Part shown: positions 57,529 through 63,879 of the stretch, piece by piece | How positions within the stretch are numbered: position 1 is the first letter of the stretch | How the letters are laid out: every line of letters starts with the position of its first letter | Source of the DNA: Paenibacillus sp. E222 | Lineage (GTDB): Bacteria > Bacillota > Bacilli > Paenibacillales > Paenibacillaceae | Assembly (NCBI RefSeq): GCF_013401555.1 | Contig: NZ_CP058552.1 | Span: 62,001-126,000, forward strand | DNA length: 64,000 nt | Direction: 5' to 3' | Notes under the pieces: generated by a model | Told to the model about the DNA's origin: nothing | Seen by the model: only the letters and a program-made list of their open reading frames with translations | Database searches by the model: none | Made by a program: the position numbers and the translations under genes

Positions 57529-57969
57529 ATCTACCACTCCTGCCGACATTTTGTTGTGTGTTATATCAATGAATACATGTCTATTATTTATATAGTACTA
57601 CCATGACAGGTTTTCTGACAACAACTTCAAAAACACAAACGAAATGTCTATTGTGATACCCTTAAATTTCCATTATAGTGAGGCTATCTGAAACCAAAAG
57701 GAGCGAAGAATATTGCGTAGCAGCCATATAGCTAAATTGATATTTACTCGAAAACGGAGAGGACAGAAATAACCTGAAGAAGCGGAGCGTTCGCCTTTAT
57801 CCCCGGATTTTCCCCTTTGAAAAAGGAATTCAAAAAATCTGGGGATAACAGCGATCGGAAGGTTGTTCTGTCATCGGAGTGGCATGTGTAAATATCTTTT
57901 TTAGTTCAATTTATATAGCTAATTGTCGTGCTAGGTGAAGCGAACTTAATTTGTGAATAGGAGATCATC
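57529..57969. other. 441-bp spacer holding structured repeat copy 1
   Basis: No gene seen between the divergent GNAT genes. The repeat hairpin and its conserved tail occupy 57762-57892; AT-rich sequence on both sides may hold promoters. Confidence 0.7.
57762..57892 (+). repeat. Structured repeat/ncRNA candidate, copy 1
   Basis: A 111-nt hairpin (57762-57872): terminal GACAGAA/TTCTGTC, ACCT/AGGT, an asymmetric internal loop containing CCTGAAGAAGCGGAGCG (57773-57789), stem GTTCGC/GCGATC, a 14-bp stem TATCCCCGGATTTT/AAAATCTGGGGATA (57798-57811 with 57834-57847), and a CCTTT/AAAGG tip. A tail ATCGGAGTGGC.A.GTGTAA follows. A second copy is at 61923-62091. There is no coding frame. It could be a MITE-like element with inverted ends or a structured RNA. 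Confidence 0.75.
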
Positions 57970-58545
57970 ATGACACTATCGACTGAAAATCTGTTTTATA
58001 GCAAACGATTGAAAATGACCCCGCCCCGTGCTGAAGACGTGCAAACCATGCTGCAATGGAATGAAGATCCCGAATATTTGCGAAATGTGGACACGGATAT
58101 TGCCATTCCTTATTCGGAAAAGCAGCTTGAAGATGAAGGCGAGACGAAGGACAAGGAAGTTTACTTCCGGCTTCGAACGCTTGAGGATGAACAACTGATC
58201 GGATTCGTTGTCATTCACAGTATTGAATGGAACAACCGCTGCGGACAGCTTGCCATTGGCATTGGACTCGCACAGCATCGCAACAAGGGGTACGGAACGG
58301 AAGCGTTGAATCTTATTTTGCGGTATGCCTTCCATGAATTGAATCTGGACCGGGTAGGTCTGGATGTCATCGCCTATAATGCCAAGGGCATCCGAGCCTA
58401 TGAGAAGGTCGGCTTTCAGTTGGAAGGTCGGGCTAGATCAGCCGTGTATCGTGATGGAAAACGCTATGATCGCTTATGGATGGGAATTCTAAGACCGGAA
58501 TGGGAAGCACACAATCAGATCAAATTGGAGGGTGGACAAGCATGA
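57970..58545 (+). CDS. GNAT N-acetyltransferase (RimJ/RimL type)
   Basis: 191 residues, start behind AGGAG. TPPRAEDVQTMLQWNEDPEYLRN opens the RimJ/L-type fold; motif A is GLAQHRNKGYGTEALNLILRYAF and the C-terminal pattern YNAKGIRAYEKVGFQLEGRARSAVYRDGKRYDRLWMG is diagnostic. It is the same operon as the DUF1801 gene, which starts in its stop codon. Acceptor unknown. Confidence 0.9.
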   Translation: MTLSTENLFYSKRLKMTPPRAEDVQTMLQWNEDPEYLRNVDTDIAIPYSEKQLEDEGETKDKEVYFRLRTLEDEQLIGFVVIHSIEWNNRCGQLAIGIGLAQHRNKGYGTEALNLILRYAFHELNLDRVGLDVIAYNAKGIRAYEKVGFQLEGRARSAVYRDGKRYDRLWMGILRPEWEAHNQIKLEGGQA

Positions 58546-58889
58546 ATAGGAATGAGGAAGTCACTGAATTTATCGAACAGATCACGGTACCATGGCAAGT
58601 CCAGGTTGCAAGTAAACTGCGGGAGTTGGTACATGAGTCCATCCCTGAAGTAGAGGAACGTGTGCAGTACAAAAAACCTCATTTCCTGAAAAACGGTAAA
58701 TATACGGCGGTCATCTCTCCTTCCAAGCCGGCTGTATCCTTCACGATCTTCAATGCAACCGGACTTGATCTGCCAGATGGGATATTTGAAGGCCCTGCGG
58801 AACGCAAAACCATCAAGATCAAGGAAAAAGATACGCCGGACTATGAGTGGCTCGCTGGCCTTCTGACACAGGCATCGGCAGAACTCTAA
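58542..58889 (+). CDS. DUF1801 (YdhG-like) protein
   Basis: 115 residues from ATG 58542, overlapping the GNAT stop as ATGA and preceded by GGAGGGTGG. Sequence VTEFIEQITVPWQVQVASKLRELVHESIPEVEERVQYKKPHF and the later TFTIFNATGLDLPDGIFEG-like pattern fit the DUF1801 fold (iron-chaperone-like or unknown). Cytoplasmic; function not established. Confidence 0.8.
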   Translation: MNRNEEVTEFIEQITVPWQVQVASKLRELVHESIPEVEERVQYKKPHFLKNGKYTAVISPSKPAVSFTIFNATGLDLPDGIFEGPAERKTIKIKEKDTPDYEWLAGLLTQASAEL

Positions 58890-58951
58890 GCTGGTATCGA
58901 GGATATAACATGTCATAGATTTTTCTAACCGACTATAGCAACTATTAAAAA

Positions 58952-58976
58952 GGCCAACCAGCATATCTGGTTGACC
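58952..58976 (-). terminator. Terminator, minus-strand direction
   Basis: GGCCAACCAG pairs with CTGGTTGACC; TTTTT on the minus strand, serving the gene at 59098. Confidence 0.75.
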
Positions 58977-58986
58977 TGATCATACG

Positions 58987-59029
58987 AAGGGGCTTCCTAT
59001 ACTGTTGAACACATATAGGATCGCCCCTT
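58987..59029 (+). terminator. Terminator of the GNAT-DUF1801 operon
   Basis: AAGGGGC-CCTAT pairs with ATAGG-GCCCCTT, then TTTGGG. Confidence 0.75.
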
Positions 59030-59097
59030 TTGGGTGTGCAGCATTTATTACAATTTAAATCGCATCTATGCAATAACAGATCATTAGAGTTCCCTCA

Positions 59098-60402
59098 TCA
59101 GGATTGTTGATAAGATACCGCAGTCATCTGACACGGCTCGCAAATGAACATGTAATACATGCCATCCCCGTATTCCTCAACCTCGCTCCAGTCTATTTGT
59201 CCAACGGCCCGCATCCTAGAAGAGCAGCATGGACAGTTCGGGTACTCCGCGTCCTGAACCCATCCGGGATGGCCCCCAATCTGGGAAGCAGAAGGCTCCA
59301 TCGCCCACTCACTGGCATGGAACGCATGACGTGGTGTGGTCGCAATCCGAAACTGCTGCCCTGCATCCGCTGCAAGCTGAACATCGTCGTCCGGGTCAAG
59401 ATTATCCGCTCCCATCGGCATCACATTATGCGCACTCCAGCACGGTTCACCTGCTGAATCCATCTCCATATAAACGACGCCATAACAACTACAACTAATG
59501 CAAGTCTGCACTTGAAGTCGTTCACTGTTCCAAGCAACGTCCTGCAGTGCTGGATGCCGTACATCCAAATCCATTAAGGTCGTTAACTGACTGCCACACC
59601 ACTCACAGGTATCGGCACTGGTCAGCAGCATGGAGATGGGATCGCCAATTGATGGGTCGTCTGCCCCTTCATTCCCTTTTACTTTATAGAGTGAATAACT
59701 TGGGGTGATGAATAAATCCCTGCGCTGACCTTCATTCGTTAACTCCCAACCGGCTTCGGTTGTATAGTACTCTGGTGCAACATGCAGCTGATCTGCCCAA
59801 TGAGGTGGCAACTGCCTCCATTGCTGGAACTGACGTACGACCACTTCATCTCCAATATAGGCGAGCATGAGCAACAGGTTATTCCGATTCTCATCATCGG
59901 TGTTCACCCGCTGCAAAAGTTGATCACGTACTTCGGGCGAGGCACTCTTATACAAAATGGCAGGGTAGTCAATTTCATGCTCCAGCAGCTCAGGAATCTG
60001 TGCAGACAACGAGGTATCATGGTAACAGACCAGATATACCAATATATCTTTACCTGTATCATCATCCCCTGAACGAATCAGCTGCATCGCATACTCAATC
60101 ATGAGGGCTTGCTGCTCCGCAGACAAGGACAGATATACTTCTTCTTTGGAATGATCGTATGCCACATAACGGATTAGCGGATCATGAACCTGGCGTGTAT
60201 GCATAACTTTCAAAATCTCCACAGGGTCCGTCATTCCCTCATACAAGTTCACGTCGCGCCGATTGGCTTCAATGTATCTTTGACGTGCCTCACGTTCCAT
60301 CTCCTGCTTGCAAGGCATACAGTACCCACCTGTTCGGGCAGCCGTTGCTGGCAAAATCGTATTTGGGCACCCCTCTCGTATGCACGGAATGCGTTCTGTC
60401 AT
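59098..60402 (-). CDS. Zinc-ribbon protein with DUF1963-like C-terminus
   Basis: 434 residues, strong GAGGAGGT site. The N-terminus has CIREGC...GGYCMPC (~6-31), a probable zinc knuckle. The middle is helical (HEAT-like, ~45-200) and the second half has CEWCG, CISCSC, SASQIGGHPGWVQDAEYPNCPCC and CEPC, making further zinc sites. The SQIGGHPxxVQ pattern recalls DUF1963 (YwqG) proteins. No signal peptide. Function unknown; two-domain metal-binding cytoplasmic protein by appearance. Confidence 0.65.
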   Translation of the reverse strand: MTERIPCIREGCPNTILPATAARTGGYCMPCKQEMEREARQRYIEANRRDVNLYEGMTDPVEILKVMHTRQVHDPLIRYVAYDHSKEEVYLSLSAEQQALMIEYAMQLIRSGDDDTGKDILVYLVCYHDTSLSAQIPELLEHEIDYPAILYKSASPEVRDQLLQRVNTDDENRNNLLLMLAYIGDEVVVRQFQQWRQLPPHWADQLHVAPEYYTTEAGWELTNEGQRRDLFITPSYSLYKVKGNEGADDPSIGDPISMLLTSADTCEWCGSQLTTLMDLDVRHPALQDVAWNSERLQVQTCISCSCYGVVYMEMDSAGEPCWSAHNVMPMGADNLDPDDDVQLAADAGQQFRIATTPRHAFHASEWAMEPSASQIGGHPGWVQDAEYPNCPCCSSRMRAVGQIDWSEVEEYGDGMYYMFICEPCQMTAVSYQQS

Positions 60403-60480
60403 CCGTTGGCACCTCCTCTGCTATTGATCACGCTTCACGATCCATCGAGTCCCATCCATATCGATCAGCGGGAAGGTAGA

Positions 60481-61659
60481 TTAGTGATGTCCCAGTTGCT
60501 CCTTCGTGAATTCATAAAATGCGAGCGCATCTTCGCTGCTGGCAAAGCCCGCCTGAGCCATCTTGTCGCTGCCGCCACCTTTGCCCTGGTAGGCTCCGAG
60601 ATTGCCCTTGAAGAAAGGTCCACAAGCCCACTCTGGCGGCTGCCCGTTCTGCGCCAATACAACCTTGGCCTCCGAGATGCTCGCAAAGAGTACAAGGCCT
60701 TCATGTTCTGATGTCAGCTTGGTTGCCAGACTCTGCATATCCTTGAGCGATTTGTCCTCAAAGATTTGGGCAATGACAAGCCCTTCCCGTGCAGATAAAA
60801 GCTCCTGCGCATAATAAGCGTCATTGGAAGCTTTCACCACGTTCAGCTCTGCTTGCAGCTGCTTTTGTTCTGCTTCCATTTTGTCGATCCGATCCGTCAG
60901 CTCTTCCCGGCTCGTCTTCAATTTGGCTGTAATTCCGGTCAGTACGCTTTGCGCGGCGTTGAACTCATTCAGTGCTCGGTATCCACATTTAAAATAAATC
61001 CGGGTGCCGCCCTTCACTTTCTCGGTTTTCAACAGTTTAATGATCCCGATCTCGCCAGTGGCTGACACATGTGTTCCACCACAAGCGTTATATTCCACAC
61101 CCTCGATTTCCACGATGCGAATATCTTCGGTGACGGAAGGCTGCTTCACCAGCGGCAGACGGGCCGCTTCTTCCGCTGTGACCCAGGAACTGCTGATTTT
61201 GGCATTTCGGTATATCTGCTGATTGACCTCCATTTCAATGGCAGCCAGTTGGTTCGCTCCCAATTCGGCTGCGGCCACATCAATCGTGATATAATCTGTG
61301 CCCAGATGAAAACTGAACGTCATCGCATCTGCCAGTTTCAGCGCAATAGCCGATAGCAAATGCTGCCCGCTATGCTGCTGCATATGATCGAATCTGCGCT
61401 GCCAATCGATGTGGCAATCCACGTCATTCTGCTCCGGCGCACGCTCCAGCTTGTGCAGCACCTCATCATTTTCACTAATTACATCCAACACATCCATGCC
61501 GCCGATCTGTCCCAGATCACAAGGCTGTCCACCCCCATGCGGATAAAAAGCCGTCTCTGCCAGCGTCACATATATACCGTCTTCCTTGTCCACTCTGCCT
61601 GTAATTTGTGTATGCCACTCGCGTGTGTATGCCGAGTCATAATAGATTTTTTGCGTCAT
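60481..61659 (-). CDS. Alanyl-tRNA editing protein (AlaX-L type) with DHHA1 domain
   Basis: 392 residues. Editing domain with zinc ligands H96-SGQ-H100 and C193-GGT-H197 and the usual FYPHGGGQPCD. A coiled coil (~240-285) follows, then a DHHA1 domain (GAYQGKGGGSDKMAQAGF, ~360-380). The protein hydrolyses mischarged Ser- or Gly-tRNA(Ala) in trans. The long form with DHHA1 is common in Bacilli. Single gene; the plus-direction spacer behind its start holds a terminator and repeat copy 2. Confidence 0.92.
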   Translation of the reverse strand: MTQKIYYDSAYTREWHTQITGRVDKEDGIYVTLAETAFYPHGGGQPCDLGQIGGMDVLDVISENDEVLHKLERAPEQNDVDCHIDWQRRFDHMQQHSGQHLLSAIALKLADAMTFSFHLGTDYITIDVAAAELGANQLAAIEMEVNQQIYRNAKISSSWVTAEEAARLPLVKQPSVTEDIRIVEIEGVEYNACGGTHVSATGEIGIIKLLKTEKVKGGTRIYFKCGYRALNEFNAAQSVLTGITAKLKTSREELTDRIDKMEAEQKQLQAELNVVKASNDAYYAQELLSAREGLVIAQIFEDKSLKDMQSLATKLTSEHEGLVLFASISEAKVVLAQNGQPPEWACGPFFKGNLGAYQGKGGGSDKMAQAGFASSEDALAFYEFTKEQLGHH

Positions 61660-61775
61660 CGAATCATCCCGATCCCTTCTCTTTCAAATGGCTGTCCATA
61701 CTCTCCAGATTACACTATCTGGAACCGCCAAGCCAAATTTTCCGACTCACATCTTCGCTTTTCCATATCAAAAAA

Positions 61776-61809
61776 AGACCGCTCTGTAAGCCAAGCTACA
61801 GAGCGGTCT
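61776..61809 (-). terminator. Strong terminator (13-bp perfect stem)
   Basis: AGACCGCTCTGTA, 8-nt loop, TACAGAGCGGTCT; T7 on the minus strand. It would end transcripts from the dhaKL gene after they pass the repeat. Confidence 0.85.
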
Positions 61810-61922
61810 CCTTACTTATATCCACTATCCACGTTTAATGAAACGTTGGATATGGTTTGTACCTATGATTACACCAAAACAAGATGCAGTCATATTAATT
61901 TGGTATAGACACAAGAGCGAAA

Positions 61923-62091
61923 CAGACAGAAAGGACCTGAAGAAGCGGAGCGTGCTCCTTTATCACCGGATTTCTCCCTTCAGGGGAAAATCATTGAAAT
62001 CCGGGGGTAAGAGAGATCGAAAGGTTTTCTGTCTGTGTAGTTCCTGAGTGTCAAATCAAGTATGGTCTGCAATCGGAGTGGCCAAGTGTAA
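61923..62091 (+). repeat. Structured repeat/ncRNA candidate, copy 2
   Basis: 113-nt hairpin (61923-62035) with CAGACAGAAA/TTTCTGTCTG ends, the identical internal segment CCTGAAGAAGCGGAGCG (61936-61952), stem GTGCTC/GAGATC, and stem TATCACCGGATTT/AAATCCGGGGGTA. Relative to copy 1, pair G57793-C57852 is replaced by T61956-A62014. The tail ATCGGAGTGGC.A.GTGTAA is at 62072-62091, here separated from the hairpin by 36 nt. Confidence 0.75.
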
Positions 62092-62109
62092 TCTCGTTGC
62101 ACTCCATAT

Positions 62110-63879
62110 TTATTTCATTGACTCAGATAGCTCTGTGAAAATAACACCCAGCGCATAGGCGCCAGCATCCGGGTATCCGAGACTGCGATCACCAACAGCA
62201 CCCGCGCGGCCCATGCGTGCCACAATGTCTTCTGTTTTCTTCGCGCCTTCTACCGCGGCTTCAGCACCTTTGGCAAACGCCGTTTGGAAGTTATCTCCAG
62301 ACTTCGCACTTTGCGTCCATGAATCTGCACAAGGAACAAGTGCGTCAATTAATGTCTTGTCACCTACAACGGCACCACGTCCGAAGGAGCGCTCCCCTGT
62401 AGATTGAATGCCTTGTACTGCCGCCTGCATCATGTCAGCGAACTCTGCAACGTTCAATTGCTGCTTGTCCCCAACGGCTTTGCCTGCCGCCCGGAATGCC
62501 GAACCCCAGATTGGACCGGAGGCACCGCCGCAGTATTCCATAATGACAAGAGAGCATGCATCGAGGAATGAACCGATATTCTTTTTCTCTTCATTCAAGA
62601 TATGGTTCCATTCACGCTTGAGCTGTCTGAAGCCCTTTGCTACGCTCATGCCAAAGTCGCCGTCACCCGCATGGGAATCCAGTTCACAGAACGGTACTTC
62701 GTTCTTAATGATGATCTCACTCATCTTATCGATCAGGTAGACGATATTTTCCAGGGAGAATTGATTGTTGTTGATTACAGCAGAAGATGCAGGTGTCTCC
62801 ACTTCATAGGATACTGGCGCATCTTCAGTCACGACGGCTTCCAACGCTTCGGAATATGTCACTTGTGCTACTGGAGGACCAGTCACTTTGAAAGCAGGTG
62901 TATCACTTTCCTTAAACAACAACGTTTTCAGTTCATCGTCCAGTTTCAGGATGGTTACCGATGCGCCTGCCATATCGATGCTCGTCATGTAATTGCCAAC
63001 AAACGTAGTGGCTACATTCAGTCCTGAATGCTGTGCCAGCTCACGCTGAACCGAGTTGTTGAGCAGATAGAGCTCCTGCAACGGTGTAGCGCCAAAGCCA
63101 TTGACGAGCACAGCAATCTCAGCAGAAGCATCGTTGTCCAGCTTCATATCTGCAAGCAGCGCTTCAACCATGCGTCCTGCAAGCTCATCCGCAGATACCA
63201 ATTTCTCGCGGCGAATACCTGGCTCACCATGAATGCCCACACCGAATTCCATCTCATCTTCAGCGATTTCAAATGTCGGTGTTCCTTTGGCAGGTACGGT
63301 ACAGGATGTGAATCCAAATCCGATGCTGCGTACGTTCAGGGCTGCTTTCTCAGCAACGGATTTCACCTCTGCCAGACTGCGGCCTTCTTCGGCAGCGGCA
63401 CCAGCGATTTTGTGAACCAGTACAGTTCCGGCAACGCCGCGGCGTCCTACCGTATACAAACTGTCTTGAACAGCAATATCATCCTCAACCCGTACATATT
63501 GCACGTCAATGCCATCTTCCTCGGCAAGATGCGCCGCGTTCTTGAAGTTCATCATATCTCCGCTGTAGTTTTTGATAATCAGCAGCGTGCCCTTCTTGCT
63601 AGCTGTGGCCTTGATCGCCTGATATACCTGAATCTGGGAAGGAGATGCGAATACATCTCCGCAGACCGCAGCATCCAGCATGCCTTTGCCAACGTAACCC
63701 GCATGAGCAGGTTCATGACCACTACCGCCGCCACTGATGAGGCTGACTTTATCCCCATTAATCTCTCTGCGTTTAATGACCTTATATTTTTTCAAAAATT
63801 CAAGCTCCGGGTGCGCCAGCGCAATTCCGTTGCACATTTCCATGACAACATTTTCAGCCTGATTGATGATTTTTTTCAT
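62110..63879 (-). CDS. dhaKL: Dihydroxyacetone kinase, fused DhaK-DhaL
   Basis: 589 residues. DhaK part (~1-330): SGGGSGHEPAHAGYVG, KNYSGDMMNF and the dihydroxyacetone-binding histidine GIH217GEPG. DhaL part (~375-585): HAGDGDFGMSVAKGF and CGGASGPIWGSAFRAAG for nucleotide and magnesium binding. It phosphorylates dihydroxyacetone to DHAP with ATP, without needing a phosphotransferase partner. Its ATG follows the preceding stop codon directly (TAAATG), with GGGAGG as ribosome site. The preceding gene ends like glycerol dehydrogenase, giving glycerol to DHA to DHAP in one operon. Confidence 0.92.
   Translation of the reverse strand: MKKIINQAENVVMEMCNGIALAHPELEFLKKYKVIKRREINGDKVSLISGGGSGHEPAHAGYVGKGMLDAAVCGDVFASPSQIQVYQAIKATASKKGTLLIIKNYSGDMMNFKNAAHLAEEDGIDVQYVRVEDDIAVQDSLYTVGRRGVAGTVLVHKIAGAAAEEGRSLAEVKSVAEKAALNVRSIGFGFTSCTVPAKGTPTFEIAEDEMEFGVGIHGEPGIRREKLVSADELAGRMVEALLADMKLDNDASAEIAVLVNGFGATPLQELYLLNNSVQRELAQHSGLNVATTFVGNYMTSIDMAGASVTILKLDDELKTLLFKESDTPAFKVTGPPVAQVTYSEALEAVVTEDAPVSYEVETPASSAVINNNQFSLENIVYLIDKMSEIIIKNEVPFCELDSHAGDGDFGMSVAKGFRQLKREWNHILNEEKKNIGSFLDACSLVIMEYCGGASGPIWGSAFRAAGKAVGDKQQLNVAEFADMMQAAVQGIQSTGERSFGRGAVVGDKTLIDALVPCADSWTQSAKSGDNFQTAFAKGAEAAVEGAKKTEDIVARMGRAGAVGDRSLGYPDAGAYALGVIFTELSESMK

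Follow-up and report, generated by a model that had tools for sequence, protein, structure and literature searches.

BOX elements of Streptococcus pneumoniae are modular stem-loop repeats, with roughly a hundred in each genome. In the Bacillus cereus group, the repeats bcr1-bcr3 are high-copy intergenic hairpins that resemble miniature inverted-repeat transposable elements (MITEs) and often lie in untranslated regions or operon spacers; bcr mobility is tied to a TTTAT motif, and bcr10 and bcr18 have been proposed as RNA elements (PMC3446304, PMC6542083). The Correia elements of Neisseria, short repeated sequences that frequently lie directly 5' of genes, are described as carrying promoters and can influence expression (PMC10969869), and REP/BIME palindromes measure 20-40 nucleotides (nt) (PMC3733652). 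Here, we analyzed a stretch of 64,000 nt from Paenibacillus sp. E222 (contig NZ_CP058552.1, positions 62,001 to 126,000 of the forward strand; hereafter, the window), in which an earlier reading of the letters alone had noticed two copies of a hairpin element. We found that these hairpins are members of a large, apparently undescribed family of putative structured RNAs sited between genes, whose fold is kept while its letters change. The sequence-only reading knew of no named family that matches, and this held: Rfam 15 gave 0 matches in the window at gathering threshold, and a search of 15 loci at E<=1 gave three weak matches, all off the element and below gathering. We thus ruled out a known Rfam RNA.

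The motif GAAGAAGCGGAGCG occurs eight times in the 7.52-Mb genome of the window. One occurrence (L005) shows no hairpin and is apparently a chance match in coding sequence; the extent of the hairpin was worked out by aligning the other seven. A covariance-model search, which the sequence-only reading had proposed as a check, put the recurrence of the element far beyond chance. Within the window's own genome, the first model (R1), built from six copies, returned 127 matches with E<=1, a lower bound because only 150 of 1343 candidates were scored. We kept 122 of these, every one below 1e-7, and dropped two opposite-strand shadows and three weak matches (E 7e-5 to 0.007). Among relatives, 28 of 39 genomes matched (this and later genome tallies count the window's own). 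A second model (R2), built from 113 copies of the window's genome, had matches in 189 of the 246 Paenibacillales genomes searched and in 28 of the 46 genera that these represent. When R2 was run against 398 genomes of the class, it matched 38, all of them from Paenibacillales; with seven candidates scored per genome, weak or rare members outside the order could be missed. At most 79 candidates per genome were scored among the 39 relatives and 12 in the order-wide search, so that copy counts are lower bounds throughout. A separate expansion of the family was seen in a genome of another genus (G264, 12 matches; L361, L368, L375), and the copies read there have long arms of the GGGAAGGGCTGTGGG/CCCACAGCCCTTCCC type.

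Each copy is a long hairpin enclosing a nearly invariant junction core. Read outward, the core consists of a long apical stem and P4 (UCGC/GCGA, with CCGC/GCGG and UCGU/ACGA variants in other genera), followed by the joining strands UCGGA on the right and GAAGAA on the left; a tiny 3-bp side hairpin, P3 (GCG-NNN-CGY), lies between GAAGAA and P4. We read this arrangement as a probable P2-P3-P4 junction. Most of what the sequence-only reading said of the two window copies proved accurate: the 17-nt segment CCTGAAGAAGCGGAGCG is shared exactly, and two pairs differ in a compensated manner, G57793-C57852 having its counterpart in T61956-A62014 and the wobble G57805.T57840 in G61968-C62002. The inverted repeats GACAGAA/TTCTGTC, however, are not the ends of the element as proposed. 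The hairpin runs about 25-40 nt further on each side, through an internal loop (AACGGAGAG opposite ATCGGAGTGG), then TTTACAC/GTGTAAA and, in many copies, TTGAACT/AGTTCAA-like arms. The conserved tail described in that reading does exist in copy 2 as ATCGGAGTGGCCAAGTGTAAT, but it is a strand of an outer loop that faces the outer left arm near 61868-61890 and lies ~40 nt from the core. A motif rule divides the cores into type I (as in the window, 98 copies) and type II (24 copies), the latter with GTAGTGAAGGGG...GTAACGGTCAC outside the junction common to both types. Cores exceed 180 nt in 40 of 122 genome copies (e.g., G000:206410 and G000:2917576, G000 being the window's genome). In the nine long-core copies inspected, an extra domain of ~38 nt, with its own hairpin and a ATCGGAAG-like segment, sits at or beside P3 in two slightly different insertion places.

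Both window copies fold better than 198 of 200 dinucleotide shuffles (z of -2.92 for copy 1 and -2.90 for copy 2). In an alignment of 113 copies, both sides change in 43 of 45 pairs, giving 510 double-change cells against 117.6 +/- 14 after shuffling (0 of 500 shuffles reached the observed value) and 63-110 when partners were slid. This alignment was fitted to the structure, and unfitted checks therefore matter. In unfitted MAFFT alignments of single sites, compensated double changes were found in 6 of 43 predicted pairs at efp (19 sequences), 4 of 41 at citZ-icd (6 sequences) and 6 of 50 at ilvC-leuA (6 sequences), which partly backs the covariation. The outer arms pair with their own partners at a mean of -21.7 kcal/mol, compared with -13.6 for swapped partners, and the own partner was better in 113 of 122 copies. 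Furthermore, single mismatches in Watson-Crick-only helices were G.U in 102 cases and A.C in 33, where composition predicts 1.04:1 and a flanking control gave 32:30 (1.07). This asymmetry demonstrates that the + strand folds, and wobbles alone do not tell RNA apart from single-stranded DNA. The selected RNA suggested by the sequence-only reading is thus supported by covariation, by some compensation at orthologous sites and by wobble asymmetry, with selection presumably acting on the RNA and not on a DNA strand that folds.

The orientation of the copies mostly follows the genes. With gene calls from a home-made open reading frame (ORF) scorer, none of the 122 copies lies inside a called gene. 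The element sits between two genes running in its own direction in 82 copies, between diverging genes in 18, between two genes opposed to it in 12 and between converging genes in 8; two more have no left gene and a co-oriented right gene. In total, 102 of the 122 copies thus precede a gene on their own strand, and tandem contexts divide into 82 co-oriented and 12 opposed. In these 102 copies, the start codon lies a median of 66.5 nt beyond the end of the core, which leaves room for the arm and a Shine-Dalgarno (SD) sequence, and many copies occupy short spacers between co-directional genes (many with distances du of 18-60 and dd of 40-70). Same-strand placement recurs in low-copy genomes: by a crude ORF rule applied to 29 of 30 fetched loci (L364, a partial match, was omitted and L052, from the window's own genus, included), the upstream gene was co-oriented in 25 and the downstream gene in 20, with the downstream gene uncalled in 3 and L352 miscalled as following an opposed gene owing to a short antisense ORF. 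We read 83 downstream proteins within 160 nt of a copy. Many look like core metabolism and housekeeping, and, judged by their N-termini, they presumably include PurC, PurS, enolase, HisA, HisF, ArgB, ArgD, CarA, EF-P, TrpE, ThyA and others, as well as secA-like and uvrC-like products. One locus (L101, G000:C1:380059-381673) holds three copies, the middle one reversed, beside presumed purine genes.

In some lineages the element is common to species at fixed sites. One case came from a close search of 18 genomes picked for few matches in the 246-genome search. In that order-wide search, 16 genomes of a distant genus (g34) had been listed with matches, 15 with 1-3 and one (G128) with at least 12; the seven with one match each there carry one or two copies when searched closely. 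Among these seven, the citZ-icd site (citrate synthase/isocitrate dehydrogenase) and the ilvC-leuA site are each occupied in six, co-oriented every time. In g12, one site is common to three genomes, and at least two genomes (G035, G096) gave no match with 12 candidates scored per genome.

On balance, we consider it just probable that the family is a new cis-acting intercistronic and leader RNA of Paenibacillales that spreads in a MITE-like manner in Paenibacillus, where it would behave as a non-autonomous element. The element would be transcribed with the mRNA, within leaders and intercistronic spacers, and would act there. Its transcript would fold as one long hairpin comprising P2, GAAGAA, a 3-bp P3 able to carry the ~38-nt domain, P4 (UCGC/GCGA) and UCGGA. 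The likeliest action is that the hairpin, whether by its structure, by a bound factor or by processing, would set a 5' boundary for the cistron that follows, which would uncouple its stability and expression or translation from the upstream part of the operon. Since the joining strands are near-invariant inside fast-changing helices, we argue for a specific partner. A bolder version, which we think less likely than not, is a cis-regulatory RNA that is portable: a single folded module, spread in the manner of a transposon and swapped between variants at its sites, would have been built into more than 100 operons and leaders of a single genome, would be read by one trans factor or be itself catalytic and would set the stability of mRNA segments or translation genome-wide. 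If true, few bacteria would hold so large a family of structured mRNA elements co-oriented with genes.

Several observations weigh against a cis-acting RNA. Covariation in P3 is weak, and the pattern used for the count fits 85 of 153 sequences and leaves 68 outside it. In the unfitted alignments the covariation terms are small (-1.19 kcal/mol at efp, -0.27 at citZ-icd and -0.27 at ilvC-leuA), most pairs are invariant, and some apical citZ-icd pairs are broken in 2 of 6 sequences. In 105 of 122 copies the minimum free energy favors the + strand, but flanking controls lean likewise (79-87 of 122), and we give this preference little weight for that reason. Twenty of the 122 copies lack a co-oriented next gene, the 12 antisense to both neighbors among them, and copy 2 of the window is itself antisense to both neighboring genes. 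The downstream genes show no evident common pathway. Finally, among the best 80 of 488 hisA loci (L198 with 193 nt upstream), the element lies just upstream of hisA in only four (L147, L149, L151 and L197), and it is thus dispensable there.

The main rival, which we think rather unlikely, is a purely selfish MITE-like DNA element: a transposase acting in trans would read the folded single strand, mobility would be the only reason for keeping the structure, and tolerance of insertions would dictate where copies lie and which way they point. It accounts well for dispersal. Unlinked copies are up to 96.9% identical over 192 nt and 94.3% over 230 nt, they enclose no gene, and insertion is polymorphic between strains, as P. 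taichungensis DSM 19942 has the element at hisA and P. taichungensis NC1 does not (L147 and L148), the HisA of each having 99% identity with the query. At the same site, the copy in P. pabuli is truncated at its 5' side. The youngest third of copies is already orientation-biased (37 of 42). Derivative copies also fit: of 12 extra stretches read, L315-L322, L324 and L325 hold only the right half or have lost an internal part, L326 holds the left half, and L323 is a coding match unrelated to the family. Two more exact right-half matches (2464554 and 3803346) lie outside the 12 read, and the half-copy lists are lower bounds. That right halves outnumber left halves could reflect reverse transcription that stopped short of the 5' end, and deletions together with unequal motif conservation explain it equally. 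The left-half copy (G000:C1:3715062) lies directly 5' of a full copy and points the same way, and L317 and L319, which have one junction in common, could be a deletion derivative that moves.

Other features are harder to reconcile with selfishness alone. The citZ-icd and ilvC-leuA sites are common to g34 genomes with one or two copies and show some compensation, and the arms, the expected target of a transposase acting on terminal inverted repeats (TIRs), are the least alike part of the element. A young subfamily has TATATAAATTGAACTAAA-type arms, and in many copies the arms pair yet differ between copies. The MITE-like mobile element that the sequence-only reading had allowed for stands as regards dispersal, gain and loss, but probably not as a MITE with fixed TIRs, because each arm differs between copies while pairing with its own partner. 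As for target-site duplication at empty sites, one filled and empty hisA pair can be read as a TA duplication, and the arm itself starts TATA. We found no autonomous partner in a search for Y1_Tnp alone, with no search made for TIR-bounded transposases; Y1_Tnp was absent from five genomes (G003, G004, G008, G016 and G023), each with 61-79 matches (79 being the most scored). Y1 transposases are thus unlikely to be a necessary mover. The efp site, on the other hand, speaks for movement: its flanks and outermost stem are common to the loci, but what they enclose takes one of three dissimilar forms. By motif, 38 of 50 efp loci carry variant A (5), B (24) or C (9), the remaining 12 comprising three empty and nine unread loci. 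The window's genome and G001 have different variants although their EF-P proteins do not differ in residues 2-185.

A class of riboswitches that sense a metabolite or tRNA and control an exceptionally large regulon would explain the conserved purine-rich joining strands within variable helices and the leader or intercistronic position. We consider it improbable, given that the downstream functions are unrelated (presumably eno, efp, hisA, purC, secA-like and uvrC-like), that in copies inspected by eye the hairpin does not include the SD and that presence varies among close strains. More improbable still is a structure acting at the DNA level, such as a cruciform or single-stranded hairpin with nucleoid or replication functions. 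With replichores assigned by GC skew of the fetched loci, the leading strand holds 77 of 94 tandem-context copies, and the wobbles, which show that the + strand folds, do not show that the folded strand is RNA. Orientation, however, follows the gene in 82 of 94 tandem contexts and in seven of the nine where the gene runs against replication; these are few, but we rejected replication polarity as the cause of orientation on this ground. A position just before the SD is likewise unexpected for a DNA structure. Independent small RNAs with their own promoters and terminators are very improbable, since many copies fill short co-directional spacers with little room for a promoter, even though a weak promoter-like site precedes copy 1 and some copies in other genera (e.g., L365 and L374) are followed by a terminator-like hairpin and a T-run.

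Table 1 The two copies of the element and neighboring features in the window (positions in the window; G000, the window's genome)
Feature	Position	Strand	Basis or remark
Copy 1, hairpin and outer arms	57730..57906 (approximate ends)	+	Outer arms by fold
Copy 1 core	57743-57891 (G000:119743-119891)	+	Covariance model, E 6.6e-50
P2 5' arm GACAGAA, copy 1	57762..57768	+	Pairs with TTCTGTC 57866-57872; internal to element
Near-invariant 17-nt segment CCTGAAGAAGCGGAGCG, copy 1	57773..57789	+	P2 end, joining strand GAAGAA, side hairpin P3 (GCG-GAG-CG)
Near-invariant right half AACAGCGATCGGAAGG, copy 1	57847..57862	+	P4 3' arm, joining strand UCGGA, P2 3' arm start
Promoter-like site 5' of copy 1, weak	57651..57679	+	9/12 matches; region has 2 sites, 1.6 expected by chance
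GNAT-type acetyltransferase-like gene 3' of copy 1	57970..58545	+	Every NCBIfam match under its cut-off
Copy 2, extended form with extra outer loop	61868..62092 (approximate)	+	Outer arms also in relatives
Copy 2 core	61906-62053 (G000:123906-124053)	+	Covariance model, E 6.2e-28
Invariant 17-nt segment, copy 2	61936..61952	+	Sequence read directly
Right strand of outer loop and arm, copy 2 (ATCGGAGTGGCCAAGTGTAAT)	62072..62092	+	Sequence; layout in relatives
AlaX-like gene left of copy 2	60481..61659	-	AlaXM and AlaS models match below cut-off
Gene right of copy 2	62110..63879	-	Presumably dihydroxyacetone-kinase-like, judged by sequence

The two window copies differ in their surroundings. Copy 1, placed between the weak promoter-like site and the acetyltransferase-like gene, fits the usual context of the family. 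The outer layout of copy 2 was also read in four other genomes (L257, L261, L262 and L265) and is altered in L259. We considered that copy 2 might be one element nested in another, which is weakened because the orthologues share its layout, and we thus regard copy 2 as an extended form; true nesting is suggested for the argD copy (G000:2026559). At the AlaX site, the element was present in 6 of 10 loci read (own genome counted), with one tandem pair and one copy whose apex is lost. A terminator-like hairpin of 13 pairs lies at 61776-61809 of the window, ~60 nt before copy 2, and in L265 the terminator-like hairpin and the element are duplicated as one unit. This was the sole such site found and none follows copy 1 or copy 2, and on this ground we rejected an intrinsic terminator. 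A third copy (G000:C1:129604-129744) lies ~3.6 kb past the right end of the window, between converging genes.

Together, these data describe a structured family that numbers no fewer than 122 copies in a single genome and has members in 28 genera. Because the family is both mobile and constrained in its pairing within operon spacers, the passage from mobile DNA to regulatory RNA becomes directly testable, and the efp, hisA and ilvC-leuA sites offer natural series of alleles, of presence and absence and of conservation, respectively. Among the titles and abstract openings returned by searches of the open literature, none describes the element in Paenibacillus. In the hammerhead ribozyme, a CUGANGA strand adjoins a three-helix junction, and the CUGAAGA of the element resembles it; measured against the hammerhead layout, the GAA strand and cleavage site stand in the wrong order, which led us to reject this identity, and Rfam gave no match on the element. 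The REP/BIME palindromes moved by RAYT (Y1) transposases share the extragenic, high-copy hairpin form, but the Paenibacillus element measures about 200 nt rather than 20-40 nt, and several high-copy genomes are without Y1_Tnp. We rejected REP/RAYT membership since a linked Y1 transposase was missing from the five high-copy genomes. The likeness to BOX elements, as these are generally described, lies in modular stem-loops and a similar copy number. Correia elements are likewise small repeats upstream of genes, but they are described as carrying promoters, whereas the Paenibacillus family is marked by a fixed core with covarying helices around it and by its co-orientation with genes. Among published elements, the bcr repeats come nearest, and they are also high-copy, intergenic, MITE-like hairpins of a Gram-positive genus. 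Compared with the bcr repeats, the Paenibacillus family is set apart by an R2 signal confined to Paenibacillales at the depth scored in the class-wide search and by arms that are unlike between copies yet complementary within each.

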